Source: Pseudomonas sp. ATCC 13867 (GTDB lineage Bacteria; Pseudomonadota; Gammaproteobacteria; Pseudomonadales; Pseudomonadaceae). From it: 64,000 nucleotides of DNA. Positions 4,935 through 17,008 of this stretch are shown piece after piece. A program made the position numbers and the translations under genes. Numbering within the stretch: the first letter of the stretch is position 1; every line of letters starts with the position of its first letter. Location: NCBI RefSeq assembly GCF_000349845.1, contig NC_020829.1, positions 4,161,001-4,225,000 on the forward strand. Direction: 5' to 3'. A model generated the notes under the pieces. The model searched no databases and was not told the origin of the DNA. It was given only the letters and a program-made list of their open reading frames with translations.

Positions 4935-6344
4935 TCAGCTCGCCGGGTCGCCGGCTTCCGGCGAGATCAGCCGAGCCGGCACATGCCCCTGGCTATTGCG
5001 CGCCAGCAGGTAGTAGGCCAGCGCCGGCAACACCAGGCCGACCAGCCAGGAGATGTCCACACCACCCAGCGTCTCCACCAGCGGGCCGGCGTAGAAGCCG
5101 CTGTCGATGAAGGGCATCTGCACCAGCACGCCGAAGCAATAGACGCCGATACCGGTCCAGTTCCAGCGGCCATAGCGACCATCTGGGTCGGACAGCGCCG
5201 GGATGTCGTAGCGCTCGCGGGTGATGCAGTAGTAGTCCACCAGGTTGATCGCGCTCCAGGGGGTGAAGAACGCCAGCAGGAACAGCAGGAACGACTTGAA
5301 CGCGGCGAGGAAGGAATGCTGCCCGGCCAGCGCCAGGCCGGTGGACAGGCCGACGATCAGCAGCACGAACAGCAGGCGCTGCAGCCGCGTCACCTCCAGG
5401 TGGCCGCGGAAGCCGCTGATGATGGTGGCGATGCACATGAAGCTGCCGTAGGCGTTGAGCGTGGCGATGGTGACCTTGCCGAAGGCGACGCTGAAGAACA
5501 GCGCGGCGGCCAGCATGCCGCTGGCGCCCAGGCCGACCACATAGGCCACCGGCTGGCCGGAGAAGGCCTTGCCGGCCAGCGCCGCGGCGAACACGCCGAG
5601 CACCATCGAGGTCTGCGAGCCGATCACCGAGCCCAGGCCCACGGCGAGGAAGGTCTTCGGCGACGAGGTCTGGCTGGGTAGGTAGCGCGAGTAGTCGGCG
5701 ACATAGGGACCGAAGGCGATCTGCCAGGACGCTGCCAGCGAGACCGCCAGCAGGAAAGTGTTCCAGGCGAAGTGGCGGTTCTCCAGCAGCCCGCCGATGT
5801 CGTTGACCGACAGCAGACGCACGAACAGGTAGGCGAAAGCGACGATACCCAGCACGCTGGCAGCCTTGCCCAGCCAGTGGATCACTCGGTAGCCGCAGAC
5901 CGTCACCACCACGATGACCGCCGCGAAGACCAGGATGCCCAGGGTGTCGCTGACATGCGCCAACTGGCCGATGGCCTGGCCGGCCAGCACCGTCCCGGTG
6001 GCATTGAAGCCGACGTACATCACGCACACCAGCACCAGCGGGATGACCGCGCCGAACACGCCGAACTGCACGCGGCTGGAAATCATCTGCGGCAGCCCCA
6101 GCTTGGGCCCCTGAGCACCATGCAGGGCCATGACCACGCCACCGAAGACCTGTCCGATGAGCAGGCCGATCAGCGACCAGAACACGTCGCCGCCCAGCAC
6201 CACGGCCAAGGCGCCGGTGACGATCGCGGTGATCTGCAGGTTGCAGCCGAACCACAGGGTGAACTGGCTGAACAGCCGGCCATGCCGCTCGGATTCGGGG
6301 ATGTAGTCGATGGAACGGGTTTCGATCAGGGACTTACCAGCCAT
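4935..6344 (-). CDS. NCS1-family permease (CodB/PucI-like), candidate importer of an imidazole acid
   Basis: A 469-residue inner-membrane protein with about twelve hydrophobic segments. Family marks of nucleobase:cation symporter-1 are the N-terminal FTLWFGCNLQITAIVTGAL, the helix-6 region SWQIAFGPYVADYSRYLP, and FFTPWSAINLVDYY late in the protein. The family imports cytosine, purines, allantoin, hydantoins and related N-heterocycles. From memory, Pseudomonas hut operons also contain a CodB-like transporter. The start at 6344 has AGGAG eight bases upstream; an extension to 6374 lacks one. It is the last gene of the hutU-led module, 107 bases after the acyl-CoA dehydrogenase, so an imidazole compound is the most likely cargo; this is inferred from context. 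Confidence 0.85.
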   Translation of the reverse strand: MAGKSLIETRSIDYIPESERHGRLFSQFTLWFGCNLQITAIVTGALAVVLGGDVFWSLIGLLIGQVFGGVVMALHGAQGPKLGLPQMISSRVQFGVFGAVIPLVLVCVMYVGFNATGTVLAGQAIGQLAHVSDTLGILVFAAVIVVVTVCGYRVIHWLGKAASVLGIVAFAYLFVRLLSVNDIGGLLENRHFAWNTFLLAVSLAASWQIAFGPYVADYSRYLPSQTSSPKTFLAVGLGSVIGSQTSMVLGVFAAALAGKAFSGQPVAYVVGLGASGMLAAALFFSVAFGKVTIATLNAYGSFMCIATIISGFRGHLEVTRLQRLLFVLLIVGLSTGLALAGQHSFLAAFKSFLLFLLAFFTPWSAINLVDYYCITRERYDIPALSDPDGRYGRWNWTGIGVYCFGVLVQMPFIDSGFYAGPLVETLGGVDISWLVGLVLPALAYYLLARNSQGHVPARLISPEAGDPAS

Positions 6345-6417
6345 GAGGCTTTCTCCTCGCGCACGGCCGCTCACCCGGCCGCGCTGTTGTTGTTATGCAC
6401 AGCGTTTCCTGATTCGC

Positions 6418-6442
6418 CGGGGCGGCCAGCACGGCCGCCCCG
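6418..6442. other. Intercistronic GC hairpin between acyl-CoA dehydrogenase and permease genes
   Basis: CGGGGCGGCC (6418-6427), loop AGCAC, and GGCCGCCCCG form a perfect 10-base stem. It starts ten bases past the dehydrogenase stop, and no T-run follows on the minus strand. It may be an RNA-stability or processing element that sets the permease level relative to the enzymes, rather than a terminator. Confidence 0.5.
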
Positions 6443-6451
6443 TACCTGCCG

Positions 6452-7597
6452 TCAATGGCGGGCGGCATCCAGCACGGCGCGGGAGATGATGATCTTCTGC
6501 ACCTCGGAGGTTCCCTCGAAGATCCGCAGGATCCGCGCGTCGCGCACGAAACGCTCCAGCGGCAGGTCGCGGATGTAGCCGTAGCCGCCATGCAGTTGCA
6601 GCGCGGCGTCGGTGATGAAGCCGCAGGCCTCGGCGGCGAAGAGCTTGGCGGTGGCCGATTCCAGGCTGAAGCGCTCGCCGCTGTCGCGCCGCGCCGCCGC
6701 CTGCTGGGTCAGCAGGCGCGCCGCTTCGAACTGCGCGTACATATCGGCGATGCGCCACTGGGTGCCCTGGTAGGCGGACAGCGGCTTGGGCCCGATCTGC
6801 CGTTCGTCCACCCACTTCAGCGCGTATTCCAGGGCTGCGCGGGCGATCCCCAGGGACATGGCGGCGACTTCCACGCGGCCACGGTCGAGCACTTCCATAG
6901 CGGTACGGAAACCCTGGTTCTCCTGCCCCAACAGCGCCTCGGCGGGCAGCCAGCAATCCAGCGCCAGCTCGTAGATGGTGCTGCCGCGCAGACCCATGGT
7001 TTTTTCCGGGTTGGCGAAGGTGACGCCGGCGGTGCCCTTGGGAATCATGAAGGCGCTGATGCCACGGGCGCCGGCTTCCGCATCGGTCTTGGCGTAGAGC
7101 ACGATGAAGTCGGCTTCGCGAGCGTTGGTGATGTAGTGCTTGCTGCCACGGATACGCCACCCCCCCTCCTCGCGCATGGCGCGGGTACGCATGTCCGCCG
7201 GGTTGGAACCGGCTGCCGGCTCGGTCAGGCCGAAGGCCCCCAACAGTTCGCCGGAGGCGCAGCGTGGCAGCCATTCCTGGCGCTGCTCCTCGCTGCCGCC
7301 GATGAGGATCGAGTCAGTGGCGAGGAAGTGCGCGGTGAGTGCCGAGGCTGTGGAGGCACAGGCGGAGGACACCGCTTCGACCACCCGGCTCATGGCCAGG
7401 CTGCCGATGCCGAAGCCGCCATAGGTCTCCGGCAGGTTGATCCCCATGAAGCCCAGTTCGCCCAGGGCCTGCAGGCTTTCCGCGCAGAAGCTCTCCTCTT
7501 CGTCGTAGCGTTGCGCGTTGGCGGCCAGGACGTCGCGGCAGACGCGTTCGGCCGAGTCGACGATGGCCAGTTCGGTGGCGTCGATTGCAAAGTTCAT
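6452..7597 (-). CDS. Acyl-CoA dehydrogenase (proposed imidazolepropionyl-CoA dehydrogenase)
   Basis: A 381-residue FAD-dependent acyl-CoA dehydrogenase. It has the N-terminal helical domain, the middle-domain flavin motif GAFGLTEPAAGSNPADMRTR, KHYITNAREADF, and the C-terminal RDARILRIFEGTSEVQ. In the last, Glu361 sits where short- and medium-chain enzymes have the catalytic base. Such enzymes introduce a trans-2 double bond and pass electrons to ETF. The start ATG overlaps the CoA-transferase stop (ATGA), so the two are translationally coupled; TGGAG lies seven bases upstream. A CaiA/CaiB-like pair next to urocanase suggests a substrate whose dehydrogenated acid is urocanate. Family call sure, substrate inferred. 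Confidence 0.9.
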   Translation of the reverse strand: MNFAIDATELAIVDSAERVCRDVLAANAQRYDEEESFCAESLQALGELGFMGINLPETYGGFGIGSLAMSRVVEAVSSACASTASALTAHFLATDSILIGGSEEQRQEWLPRCASGELLGAFGLTEPAAGSNPADMRTRAMREEGGWRIRGSKHYITNAREADFIVLYAKTDAEAGARGISAFMIPKGTAGVTFANPEKTMGLRGSTIYELALDCWLPAEALLGQENQGFRTAMEVLDRGRVEVAAMSLGIARAALEYALKWVDERQIGPKPLSAYQGTQWRIADMYAQFEAARLLTQQAAARRDSGERFSLESATAKLFAAEACGFITDAALQLHGGYGYIRDLPLERFVRDARILRIFEGTSEVQKIIISRAVLDAARH

Positions 7598-8766
7598 TGG
7601 ACAGCTCCAGCACGGTTGTCGAGGCCGAATACGGCATTGGCTTCGCCCAGGCGAGGCGCGCGCGTGGCGGCATGAGGCTTGCGCCCGTTGAAGTAGACAG
7701 GTTGCGGCACCAGCGGCGGCTGGCCGTCGCCCGGTTGCACGAGCAGTTGGCGCACCTGTGCCTGCTCGCTGCCGGTGGCCTCGGCGAGGTTCCACACTGG
7801 CGACGCCGGCACCCCGGCATCCAGCAGCAGGTCGCAGGCGTCCTCGACGCTACGAGCGCCGGTCCAGCGCTCGATCTCGGCGCGCAAGGCCTGTTCGTTG
7901 CAGGTCCGCGACGGGTCGTCGGCGAAGCGCGGATCCTCCGCCAGTTCGGCGCGGCCGATACTTTCGCAGAAGCGCCGGAACAGCTTGTCGCTGGCCACCG
8001 CGATCACCACCAGGCCATCGGCGGCGCGGTAGGTATCGAAGGGCGTGGACACCGGGTGGCGGTTGCCCACCAGCCCCGGCGCCCGGCCGTGGGCGAACAG
8101 GTTGGACAGGCCGGTCATCTGCAGGCTGACCAGCACGTCGAACATGGCGACATCGATGTACTGCGCGCTGCTGCCCTGGTGCTCGCGGGCGAACAGCGCG
8201 CTGCTGATCGCCCAGGCCGCATAGACGCCAGCGCACAGGTCGCCCAACGCCTCGCCGCTGCGGGTCGGACCGGTCTCGGGGAAACCGCTGACGCTCATCA
8301 GCCCGGACATCGCCTGCGCGACGATGTCATAGGCCGGGCGGCGCGATAGCGGGCCGTTCTGGCCGAAGCCGGAGATGCTCGCGTAGATCAGCCTGGGATT
8401 GTGCCGCTTGAGGCTGTCGAAGTCGATGCCCAGGCGCTGGGTGACGCCGGGACGGAAGTTCTCCACCACCACGTCGGCGTCGGCCACCATCCGGTAGAAG
8501 CGCTGCAGGTCGTCGGGCGCCTTGAAGTCCAGTTCGACGCTGCGCTTGCCGCGGTTGATCAGGCCGAAGTAGACGCTCTCGCCGTCCTTGAACGGGCCGA
8601 GGTGGCGGCTGTCGTCGCCATGCCCCGGCACTTCGAACTTGATCACCTCGGCGCCGAGATCGGCGAGCATGGCGGTGCAGTGCGGGCCGGCCAGCACCCG
8701 GCTGAGGTCCAGCACACGCACGCCCATCAGCGGTTGTGGGGTCGGCAGTTCAGTCACGTTGCTCAT
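7594..8766 (-). CDS. Class III (CaiB/BaiF) CoA-transferase (proposed urocanyl-CoA:imidazolepropionate CoA-transferase)
   Basis: A 390-residue member of the CaiB/BaiF family, full length for the family. It has the N-terminal GVRVLDLSRVLAGPHCTAML and LGAEVIKFEVPGHGDDSR, the CoA-pocket NRGKRSVELDFK and ENFRPGV, and Asp176 in GEALGDLCAG, the position of the catalytic Asp of formyl-CoA transferase. Members move CoA between two carboxylic acids. It begins ten bases after hutU stops and ends overlapping the acyl-CoA dehydrogenase start. The arrangement parallels CaiB with CaiA in carnitine metabolism, where the product acyl-CoA donates CoA to the next substrate. The acids proposed here are inference from hutU linkage. 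Confidence 0.9.
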   Translation of the reverse strand: MSNVTELPTPQPLMGVRVLDLSRVLAGPHCTAMLADLGAEVIKFEVPGHGDDSRHLGPFKDGESVYFGLINRGKRSVELDFKAPDDLQRFYRMVADADVVVENFRPGVTQRLGIDFDSLKRHNPRLIYASISGFGQNGPLSRRPAYDIVAQAMSGLMSVSGFPETGPTRSGEALGDLCAGVYAAWAISSALFAREHQGSSAQYIDVAMFDVLVSLQMTGLSNLFAHGRAPGLVGNRHPVSTPFDTYRAADGLVVIAVASDKLFRRFCESIGRAELAEDPRFADDPSRTCNEQALRAEIERWTGARSVEDACDLLLDAGVPASPVWNLAEATGSEQAQVRQLLVQPGDGQPPLVPQPVYFNGRKPHAATRAPRLGEANAVFGLDNRAGAVQ

Positions 8767-8776
8767 GGTTCGGCCC

Positions 8777-10450
<1,674 letters not shown>

Positions 10451-10569
10451 CGGGTCTTCCTCACTTGCGGGTGGTGGCACCAGGGGTTCACCGGAGGTCA
10501 TTCCGGCGTGGCGAAAACGGGTATGCAGAAACGTCTTGGTCATCTGCTGTTACCTGATAGGTATATAGC

Positions 10570-10597
10570 CTTATATCAACCTGTATATACAAGACAA
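10570..10597 (-). promoter_or_regulatory. Predicted sigma-70 promoter of the hutU operon
   Basis: On the minus strand TTGTCT (10597-10592) and TATAAG (10575-10570) are separated by 16 bases. Transcription would start near 10563, leaving a leader of about 110 bases before the hutU start. The HutC-type palindrome lies within the spacer, touching the -35 box, as expected for repression. Prediction by eye only. Confidence 0.5.
10580..10593. promoter_or_regulatory. Candidate HutC operator
   Basis: On the minus strand CTTGTATATACAGG differs by one base from the palindrome CTTGTATATACAAG, which is close to known HutC operators (CTTGTA-N-TACAAG type). The core TGTATATACA (10582-10591) is a perfect palindrome in an otherwise GC-rich genome. 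A second TATATAC element lies 22 bases further toward hutU (within 10558-10570), about two helical turns away, and might take a second dimer. The hutC gene next to it makes this the likely repressor site. Confidence 0.65.
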
Positions 10598-10657
10598 TGC
10601 AAAGTGAAGGCCAGATGGCGCCGGTGCTCCGCGGGGGCCGTTCGGAAATTGGAATAA

Positions 10658-10684
10658 GATCTTTTATTTCAAATAGATAAGATC
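10658..10684. repeat. AT-rich inverted repeat between hutC and hutU
   Basis: GATCTT (10658-10663) and AAGATC (10679-10684) flank an imperfectly paired AT-rich core (TATTT/AAATA). It lies about 150 bases past the hutC stop and 60 bases upstream of the hutU -35 box. Possible roles are a terminator stem for hutC or an activator site (for example for a nitrogen or carbon regulator). The rest of the gap between hutU and hutC shows nothing else I can name. Confidence 0.35.
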
Positions 10685-10835
10685 GCCGTGAAATGTCCGA
10701 GTGGAAGATTCACGGCCTGCCGGATGCGAACGAACCAGCGAGAAGGAAAGGTGAAAAAGTAACAACCTGGTGCGCGAGGGTAACAAAGCGGTGCATCCGG
10801 AGCGGACATTCCGCCCCGGAGAGACGACGGAACGG

Positions 10836-11579
10836 CTACTGCCCGAAGCGGCCTTCGAGACGATAACGCGACCCCGGATAGACCAGCCGCGCCGCCCCCA
10901 CCTGCCCCTTCGCAGACCAGGTACGCCGGCGAATCAGCAGACAGGCATCGCCACGCTTGATACGCAGCAGCTTGCAGTCCGCAGCCTCGGCATTGATCGC
11001 CTCGACCACGTGCTCGCCCTCGGTGAGCGGCGCCAGTTGGATCAGGTAGGCGTAGGGCGTGATGCGGGTGAAGTCCTGCTGCAGATACTCGGGCGCCACT
11101 TCGGCGTTGACGAAGCGTTCCTCCAGTTGCACCGGCACGTCGTTCTCGTAATGCACCACCACCGAGTGGAAGATACGGCTGACGTTCTCCAGCTCGAACG
11201 GCATGGACAGATCCGCGCCCTCGGGGAGCGGTTCGAGCAGCACCACTTCGCAACGGTGCTCGTGACCGCGGGCGGTGATCTCCTCGGCGATATTGTGGAT
11301 CTCGAAGAGTGCGGCATGGCCCTTCTGCTCGGCGACGAAGGTACCGACGCCCTGCAGGCGCACCAGCACGCCCTCGATGGTCAGCTCGCGCAGCGCACGG
11401 TTGATGGTCATCCGGCTCACCCCCAGCAGGGCGAACAGTTCGCTCTCCGAGGGCAGCTTGGAGTTGGGCTTCCACACGCCGTTGCGGATCTGCTGCAGGA
11501 TGATTTCCTTGACCCGCGCATACAGGGGCGCCGGGGTTTCCAGCGCGAAGGCGGCCAGGGAGGAATGATCTTGTGACAC
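10836..11579 (-). CDS. hutC: GntR-family histidine utilization repressor HutC
   Basis: A 247-residue repressor with an N-terminal GntR winged helix (LYARVKEIILQQIRNG, then LPSESELFALLGVSRMTINR and ALRELTIEGVLVRLQGVGTF) and a C-terminal UTRA ligand domain from about residue 90 (ALFEIHNIAEEI through the end RYRLEGRFGQ). The domain order and the ending match P. putida HutC, whose inducer is urocanate. The GTG at 11579 is chosen because AGGAG lies five bases upstream; the frame runs on to a GTG at 11630 without a site. It is the probable regulator of the hutU operon downstream on the same strand, from which it is separated by a 385-base control region. Confidence 0.92.
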   Translation of the reverse strand: MSQDHSSLAAFALETPAPLYARVKEIILQQIRNGVWKPNSKLPSESELFALLGVSRMTINRALRELTIEGVLVRLQGVGTFVAEQKGHAALFEIHNIAEEITARGHEHRCEVVLLEPLPEGADLSMPFELENVSRIFHSVVVHYENDVPVQLEERFVNAEVAPEYLQQDFTRITPYAYLIQLAPLTEGEHVVEAINAEAADCKLLRIKRGDACLLIRRRTWSAKGQVGAARLVYPGSRYRLEGRFGQ

Positions 11580-15808: not shown

Positions 15809-17008
15809 ATGAACACCACAACCAAACCCCTCGCCGGCCTCAAAGTGATCGAGCTTGGCACGCTGATCGCCGGTCCCTTCGCCTCGCGCCTGTGCGCGGA
15901 ATTCGGCGCCGAGGTGATCAAGGTCGAATCGCCCGACGGCGGCGACCCGCTGCGCAAGTGGCGCAAGCTCTACGAAGGCACCTCGCTGTGGTGGTTCGTG
16001 CAGGCCCGCAACAAGCGTTCGCTGACCCTCAACCTCAAGCACGAGGCCGGGCGCGACGTGCTGAAGAAGCTGCTGGCCGAGGCGGATATCCTGATCGAGA
16101 ACTTCCGCCCCGGCGTGCTGGAAAAACTCGGCCTGGGCTGGGACGTCATTCACGCGCTGAATCCCCGTCTGGTGATGGTGCGCCTCTCCGGCTTCGGCCA
16201 GAGCGGCCCCTACAAGGACCAGCCGGGCTTCGGCGCGGTGGGTGAGTCGATGGGCGGGCTGCGCTACATCACCGGCTTCGAGGACCGCCCGCCAGTGCGC
16301 ACCGGCATCTCCATCGGCGACTCCATCGCCGCGCTGTGGGGCGTGATCGGCGCATTGATGGCGCTGCGCCACCGCGAGATCAACGGCGGACAGGGGCAGG
16401 TGGTGGACGTGGCGCTGTATGAAGCGGTGTTCGCCATGATGGAATCGATGGTGCCGGAGTTCGATGTGTTCGGCTTCATCCGCGAGCGCACCGGCAACAT
16501 CATGCCCGGCATCACGCCCTCCTCCGTGCACACCAGCGCCGACGGCAAGCACGTGCAGATCGCCGCCAACGGCGACGCGATCTTCCGCCGCTTCATGCTC
16601 GCCATCGGCCGCACCGACCTGGCGGATGACCCGCAACTGGCGGACAACGCCGGGCGCGACCAGCGCCGCGACGAGCTGTACGGGGTGATCGACCGCTGGG
16701 CCCGCTCGGAGCCCCTGGACAGCGTGCTGAAGGTACTGGGCGAAGCCGAAGTGCCAGCCAGCCGCATCTACTCCGCCGAGGATATGTTCGCCGACCCGCA
16801 GTTCCTCGCCCGCGAGATGTTCCTCTCGGCCAAGCTGCCGGACGGCAAGCCCTTCCGCATGCCGGGCATCGTGCCCAAGCTCTCCGACACGCCTGGCTCG
16901 GCGGACTGGATCGGGCCGGGGCTGGGCGAGCATACCGATGAGGTGCTGGGCGGGCTGGGGTATGACGCGGCGGCTATTGCGGTGATGCGGCAACAGGGGG
17001 CTGTGTAA
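15809..17008 (+). CDS. Class III (CaiB/BaiF) CoA-transferase, second copy
   Basis: A 399-residue CoA-transferase with the family order: GLKVIELGTLIAGPFASRL, FGAEVIKVESPDGGDPLRKW, ARNKRSLTLNLK, ENFRPGVLEKLG, RLSGFGQSGPY, and Asp171 in GISIGDSIAALWG at the catalytic Asp position. It is a different subgroup from the hutU-linked copy (GFGAVGESMGG in place of the PAYDIVAQAMSG loop). CoA donor and acceptor acids are unknown; it has no fatty-acid or ring-cleavage partner beside it. It is transcribed alone, divergent from the cyclase gene, with a poor ribosome site at the ATG and a hairpin terminator downstream. Confidence 0.9.
   Translation: MNTTTKPLAGLKVIELGTLIAGPFASRLCAEFGAEVIKVESPDGGDPLRKWRKLYEGTSLWWFVQARNKRSLTLNLKHEAGRDVLKKLLAEADILIENFRPGVLEKLGLGWDVIHALNPRLVMVRLSGFGQSGPYKDQPGFGAVGESMGGLRYITGFEDRPPVRTGISIGDSIAALWGVIGALMALRHREINGGQGQVVDVALYEAVFAMMESMVPEFDVFGFIRERTGNIMPGITPSSVHTSADGKHVQIAANGDAIFRRFMLAIGRTDLADDPQLADNAGRDQRRDELYGVIDRWARSEPLDSVLKVLGEAEVPASRIYSAEDMFADPQFLAREMFLSAKLPDGKPFRMPGIVPKLSDTPGSADWIGPGLGEHTDEVLGGLGYDAAAIAVMRQQGAV

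Follow-up and report, generated by a model that had tools for sequence, protein, structure and literature searches.

Comparison with described systems

The carnitine system of E. coli consists of CaiB and CaiA, a class III coenzyme A (CoA) transferase and an acyl-CoA dehydrogenase that pass CoA back and forth between a saturated acid and the corresponding 2-enoyl acid. Enzymes of the same two kinds are encoded in an operon of Pseudomonas sp. ATCC 13867 that we describe here, which occupies positions 4,935 to 11,579 of a 64,000-nucleotide stretch of the genome (contig NC_020829.1, positions 4,161,001 to 4,225,000), referred to below as the window. In contrast to CaiB/CaiA, the window pair falls far under the cut-offs for CaiA and CaiB, is joined to the urocanase gene hutU and to the repressor HutC, and is proposed to run in the oxidative direction. 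The other close system is the Pseudomonas hut operon with HutC and the transporter HutTu, which has HutC, HutU, an NCS1 permease and a TGTA-N2-TACA operator in common with the window operon. Unlike it, the window operon adds the CoA-transferase and the acyl-CoA dehydrogenase (hereafter CaiB and ACAD), and hutH, hutI, hutG and hutF are absent from the window, as an earlier sequence-only reading of this DNA had stated and as tblastn with the two hutH and the hutI, hutG and hutF proteins of the same genome bore out. The substrate that we propose for the operon is the same as in work on Pseudomonas testosteroni by Coote and Hassall in 1973, whose title names the degradation of imidazolylpropionate and which reportedly described the physiology, with entry through urocanate, without genes.

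The urocanate/imidazolepropionate couple is also that of UrdA, the urocanate reductase of gut bacteria, which makes imidazolepropionate from urocanate (PMC13320830; this and the other papers are cited here from the available part of each). The direction proposed for the window operon is the opposite one, and the route would pass through CoA thioesters. Gut bacteria produce imidazole propionate from histidine, and associations of the compound with insulin resistance and with cardiometabolic disease have been reported (PMC11872695, PMC13320830). Our search of the literature by titles and the beginnings of abstracts, with subscription papers mostly outside its scope, found no genes for imidazolepropionate breakdown.

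We consider it likely, judging from gene content and conservation, that the window operon serves as an entry module through which imidazolepropionate (dihydrourocanate) reaches histidine catabolism. The tie of the CaiB-ACAD pair to hut is strongly supported, and from it and the enzyme families we infer the substrate, the direction and the CoA-cycling step. If this is true, an imidazolepropionate sink would for the first time have a named gene set. With the genes defined, the fifty-year-old physiological observation could be tested by deletion, and the pair would serve as a metagenome marker for imidazolepropionate-consuming bacteria.

Layout of the operon and the second hut cluster

The gene set and order of the sequence-only reading were confirmed: hutC, operator, hutU, CaiB, ACAD and NCS1 permease, with every gene on the minus strand. 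The repressor gene hutC2 (10836..11579), the second genomic copy, encodes a GntR/UTRA histidine-utilisation repressor that passes TIGR02018 (297.8 bits against a cut-off of 220), and we read its start at 11579 as a GTG behind GGAG. The urocanate hydratase gene hutU2 (8777..10450) passes TIGR01228 with 1032.5 bits against 375 and is under both cut-offs for thiourocanate hydratase (708.9 against 880 bits and 692.7 against 930 bits). It is followed after exactly 10 bases by the gene for the CaiB/BaiF (class III) CoA-transferase (7594..8766; PF02515, 391 bits), a candidate imidazolepropionate/urocanate CoA-transferase, which shares the ATGA overlap noted earlier with the ACAD gene (6452..7597; PF00441/PF02770/PF02771), a candidate imidazolepropionyl-CoA dehydrogenase. 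The last gene encodes the NCS1 permease (4935..6344; PF02133), a putative importer of imidazolepropionate (and urocanate), and all three of these proteins exceed their Pfam cut-offs.

A second complete hut cluster in the same genome, a possibility raised by the sequence-only reading, was found about 0.96 Mb from the window on the single contig of 5.70 Mb. In this main cluster hutG, hutI, one hutH and hutF are over their NCBIfam cut-offs, as likewise are two hutH-type lyases, hutU and hutC (the other hutC copy, at G000:C1:5138414-5139091), and by our reading an NCS1 gene and ABC-transporter genes lie among the hut genes. As the full hut pathway is present elsewhere in the genome, the window operon can pass its product on. 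Between the two copies of hutU (window 8777-10450 and L003:11734-13530), DNA identity is 97.8% over 1651 bp and amino-acid identity 98.2%, whereas the window NCS1 gene and the one directly downstream of the main hutU share 81.7% of their DNA over 1331 bp and 75% of their protein sequence. This difference suggests that hutU was recently copied or gene-converted.

Upstream of hutU2, the operator TGTATATACA (10582..10591) is the single match to TGTA-N2-TACA in 64 kb. As the expected number is 0.02, we rejected a chance occurrence. TGTA-N2-TACA has been given as the HutC consensus, and urocanate has been reported to relieve HutC binding in P. aeruginosa (PMC12977541). The HutC-like operator that had been claimed before the operon is thus present as an exact site, and it recurs in the orthologous loci: of the 14 that have upstream sequence, 13 carry it 36-173 bp ahead of the first gene.

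Conservation of the pair beside hut genes

We compared 19 orthologous loci, namely the window, loci from 17 other genomes, and L042. Loci L040, L041, L043 and L044, at 93% identity or more, were left out as repeats of L023, L024, L029 and L028, respectively, since their contigs agreed in length, and L042, in the same identity range, was kept. ACAD orthologs occur in at least 9 of the 25 genomes of the genus and at least 18 of the 398 of the family, its own genome included; these counts are lower bounds, as only some candidates were scored per genome. CaiB adjoins ACAD in 19 of 19 loci, and 18 of 19 have hutU next to the pair; the hutU match reaches a contig end in five of the 19. In three species (L028, L029 and L030) the pair lies inside the main operon, in the order hutU-CaiB-ACAD-NCS1-hutI-hutG. 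The one locus without hutU, L112, has hutC, then an operator TGTATGTACA at 7430, then CaiB (start at 7494 or 7509) and ACAD; depending on the choice of start codon, the operator ends 54 or 69 bp from CaiB. It follows from this layout that the CaiB-ACAD pair itself stands next to a HutC site.

These arrangements bear on whether the pair could be an ordinary one for short-chain or dicarboxylic acids, such as glutarate, that came to lie by hutU through chance. Both proteins come from large families, and CaiB reaches 303 bits against the model for succinate-glutarate transferase, which would fit such a pair. However, the pair is below the cut-off of every NCBIfam model that it matched, its linkage to hut recurs in several lineages and gene orders, and in L112 the HutC operator stands directly before CaiB where hutU is absent, and we therefore regard a chance neighbour as very improbable.

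The permease is nearly as constant as the transferase, being next to ACAD in 18 of the 19 loci. An imidazole-type substrate fits its 75% identity to the NCS1 paralogue of the main cluster, but this identity does not single out imidazolepropionate, the substrate given in the sequence-only reading. It is possible, if doubtful, that the pair acts on imidazolepropionate while this NCS1 protein imports urocanate only. HutTu of P. aeruginosa (PA5099) has been named as a urocanate transporter (PMC12977541), the NCS1 protein beside the main hutU is by position its likely counterpart, and L112 keeps the pair without an adjacent NCS1 gene. On the other hand, the permease is kept beside ACAD almost throughout, and the genome retains it besides the main one, suggesting a role of its own. 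Urocanate-only import would count against our proposal at the import step and is compatible with the rest of it.

Active-site residues and named families

The residues that would be needed for catalysis are in place in both enzymes. Asp176 of CaiB, which we take to be the catalytic Asp of class III CoA-transferases after formyl-CoA transferase, is found in 49 of 51 alignment rows, the other two being gapped there. The ACAD has the N, M and C domains of acyl-CoA dehydrogenases and, within a (Y/F)EG(T/S) stretch, E361, which is invariant in 32 rows; together these place it in the family, and E361 is presumably the catalytic Glu, after the medium-chain and short-chain enzymes (MCAD/SCAD). Two further acidic residues set its clade apart. 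D95 is present in 44 of 44 members, and the position of E243 holds Glu in 39 and Asp in 5 of the 44, whereas 63 other ACADs, which are mostly actinobacterial and so make a weaker comparison for an argument from the pocket, have mostly Tyr, Phe or Trp at the first position and, in 46 of the 63, Gly at the second. In four alignments with solved relatives, the D95 position is Gly (three) or Trp (one) and the E243 position is Gly. An AlphaFold model (mean pLDDT 81) places D95 in helix 84-100 and E243 in helix 229-265, and the matching helices flank the acyl pocket in MCAD-type enzymes. The acidic pair would suit a charged imidazole ring in the acyl pocket.

No named family accounts for either protein, as CaiB (seven models) and ACAD are below the cut-off of every NCBIfam model matched. 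For the ACAD the candidates were acryloyl-CoA reductase (the top match, 379.1 against 640 bits), 3-sulfinopropanoyl-CoA desulfinase (256.9 against 600) and CaiA (171.6 against 540); for the transferase they were carnitine CaiB (115.2 against 413), succinate-glutarate CoA-transferase (303.2 against 750) and oxalate CoA-transferase (345.7 against 522). Relatives of the ACAD are in part named acryloyl-CoA reductase or 3-sulfinopropanoyl-CoA desulfinase in databases, while the window ACAD misses both cut-offs. The function proposed here would correct these names on some of the proteins.

The named matches raise the question of direction. If the pair ran in reverse, urocanyl-CoA would be formed from urocanate and its reduction to imidazolepropionyl-CoA would serve as an electron sink, much as CaiB/CaiA act with crotonobetaine. 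A reductase is the best-scoring family at 379 bits, though under 640, CaiA also matches with 172 bits, and caffeyl-CoA reductase CarC is among the PDB relatives; in addition, relatives with 81-83% identity occur in Providencia, which are facultative anaerobes. Yet the pair shares one gene run with hutU, and in three species also with hutI and hutG, whose products consume urocanate, and the remaining named hosts (Pseudomonas, Delftia, Rhodobacterales and rhizobia) are respiring bacteria. We accordingly judge the reductive direction to be improbable.

Distant relatives and controls

To the orthologous loci we added a distant set of 25 loci from genomes and plasmids, at 51-58% ACAD identity. Among the plasmid records with more than 50% identity, 14 were listed and 12 of these were read, and one further record at 60-80% fell outside the rows listed and was left out. 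Each of the 25 loci has an adjacent CaiB, and in 11 a hut enzyme gene is found no farther than about 9 kb away (hutU in 10), in varied gene orders: Paracoccus aminophilus and P. alcaliphilus, for example, have hutI-hutH-hutG-CaiB-ACAD-hutU, while in L128 (a Delftia, judged from its ACAD) and L146 a LysR gene, assigned by Pfam, is divergent from CaiB-ACAD, beside hutC and hutH. The sequence-only reading had held that finding the pair mainly apart from hutU in related genomes would speak against it. This is not the case among the orthologs, but it is among the distant loci, where hutU is near in fewer than half. As a control, no hut enzyme gene was found near any of 61 other ACAD loci at 30-50% identity, eight of which have CaiB.

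In an ACAD tree of 50 rows, for which 10 of the 19 Pseudomonas rows were used, one clade with 100/100 support holds 35 rows (the 10 from Pseudomonas and the 25 distant ones), every one of them paired with CaiB. Hut-linked members occur in its Pseudomonas, f109/Delftia-type and alphaproteobacterial parts. Beyond these, 14 of the 120 closest proteins listed, P0053, P0058 and P0101 among them, are from Providencia, with 81-83% ACAD identity. Providencia is a genus with gut members, and a gut sink for imidazolepropionate in these bacteria is possible.

Two distant loci, L133 (Mesorhizobium) and L134 (Gemmobacter), have the pair beside genes for a VanA-type Rieske demethylase, its reductase, an aminotransferase and an FAD-linked oxidase, which are 64-80% identical between the two, and L125 (G788) has a Rieske protein of 59% identity. 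These neighbours would suit a pair with a different imidazole or histidine-derived acid as its substrate, such as an imidazolepropionate carrying an N-methyl group or an acid that comes from methylhistidine, and with urocanate or a substituted urocanate still as the end product. We consider this unlikely for the window operon, however, because a search for the four genes at E<=1e-15 in the 18 orthologous loci other than the window and in L003 returned only one FAD oxidase of 41% identity, in L028, and the window HutU is an ordinary urocanase by the thiourocanate hydratase scores given above. As an observation in its own right, the set of demethylase, ferredoxin reductase, HisC-like aminotransferase and oxidase (L133:11296-16149 and L134:2875-7530) is perhaps one for the salvage of methylhistidine or imidazolelactate.

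Co-occurrence with urocanase points the same way as the gene neighbourhoods do. Urocanase is encoded elsewhere in the genome in 6 of 6 cases where the pair lacks hut neighbours, compared with 17 of 56 genomes without the pair, for which family matching was partial (p=0.0016). For all 14 pair-bearing genomes tested, the count is 14 of 14 (p=1.4e-6), or 14 of 14 against 15 of 27 when matched for size (p=0.002); some of these 14 were already known to have hut genes, so the independent test is that of the six unlinked ones.

Proposed route and points against it

Acyl-CoA dehydrogenases typically introduce an alpha,beta double bond into an acyl-CoA, and imidazolepropionate is the acid whose dehydrogenation gives the substrate of HutU. 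In the route that we propose, the NCS1 permease would import imidazolepropionate and the CaiB-type transferase would form imidazolepropionyl-CoA, which the ACAD would oxidise to urocanyl-CoA with transfer of electrons to electron-transfer flavoprotein (ETF). The transferase would then shift CoA from urocanyl-CoA to the next imidazolepropionate, so that CoA cycles and urocanate is freed; the first CoA would have to come from another donor. HutU would hydrate the urocanate, and the main cluster, with hutI, hutF and hutG, would complete the route to glutamate, steps that are established for the hut families. Finally, urocanate would relieve HutC at the predicted operator before hutU2-CaiB-ACAD, as reported for P. 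aeruginosa HutC.

On balance we favour a wider reading as well, in which this operon would explain genetically how bacteria consume imidazolepropionate: hut loci would have acquired a CoA-cycling pair on several occasions, under the control of HutC or LysR, and the acyl pocket of the dehydrogenase would have gained D95 and E243, which would hold the imidazole ring. On that reading, the hosts would be Pseudomonas, Providencia, Delftia, Rhodobacterales and rhizobia, with the genes partly on plasmids.

Several observations weigh against the proposed function. No acyl-CoA ligase that could prime the CoA cycle was seen in the operon, and the argument from D95 and E243 has its basis in sequence only. 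The role of the predicted operator is disputed, as PMC12772324 contradicts PMC12977541: in the available part of the former, P. aeruginosa HutC bound the hutIG promoter only and not the hutU, hutH or hutF promoters. In L108 the exact operator was not found, and the site there, TGTCTATACA, has one mismatch. Among the distant loci, 14 of 25 have no hut enzyme gene nearby (in one of these, L147, a contig end truncates the locus) and several carry a divergent LysR gene, so some distant pairs may act on a different acid. Three of these 14 have a hutC-like gene alone, namely L133 (annotated hutC), L135 and L152 (tblastn matches of 31-32%), and the other 11 have neither a hut enzyme gene nor a hutC-like gene. 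The co-occurrence with urocanase is in part an effect of genome size, since among genomes of at least 3.3 Mb the comparison for the unlinked pairs becomes 6 of 6 against 15 of 27 and p rises to 0.049.

Other features of the window

The stretch between ACAD and NCS1 contains, at about 6413-6440 of the window, an inverted repeat, GGGGCGGCC...GGCCGCCCC, that lacks a T run. For ACAD, the window gave no second match. A second CaiB/BaiF-like CoA-transferase, 34% identical to the CaiB of the operon, is encoded on the plus strand at 15809-17008.

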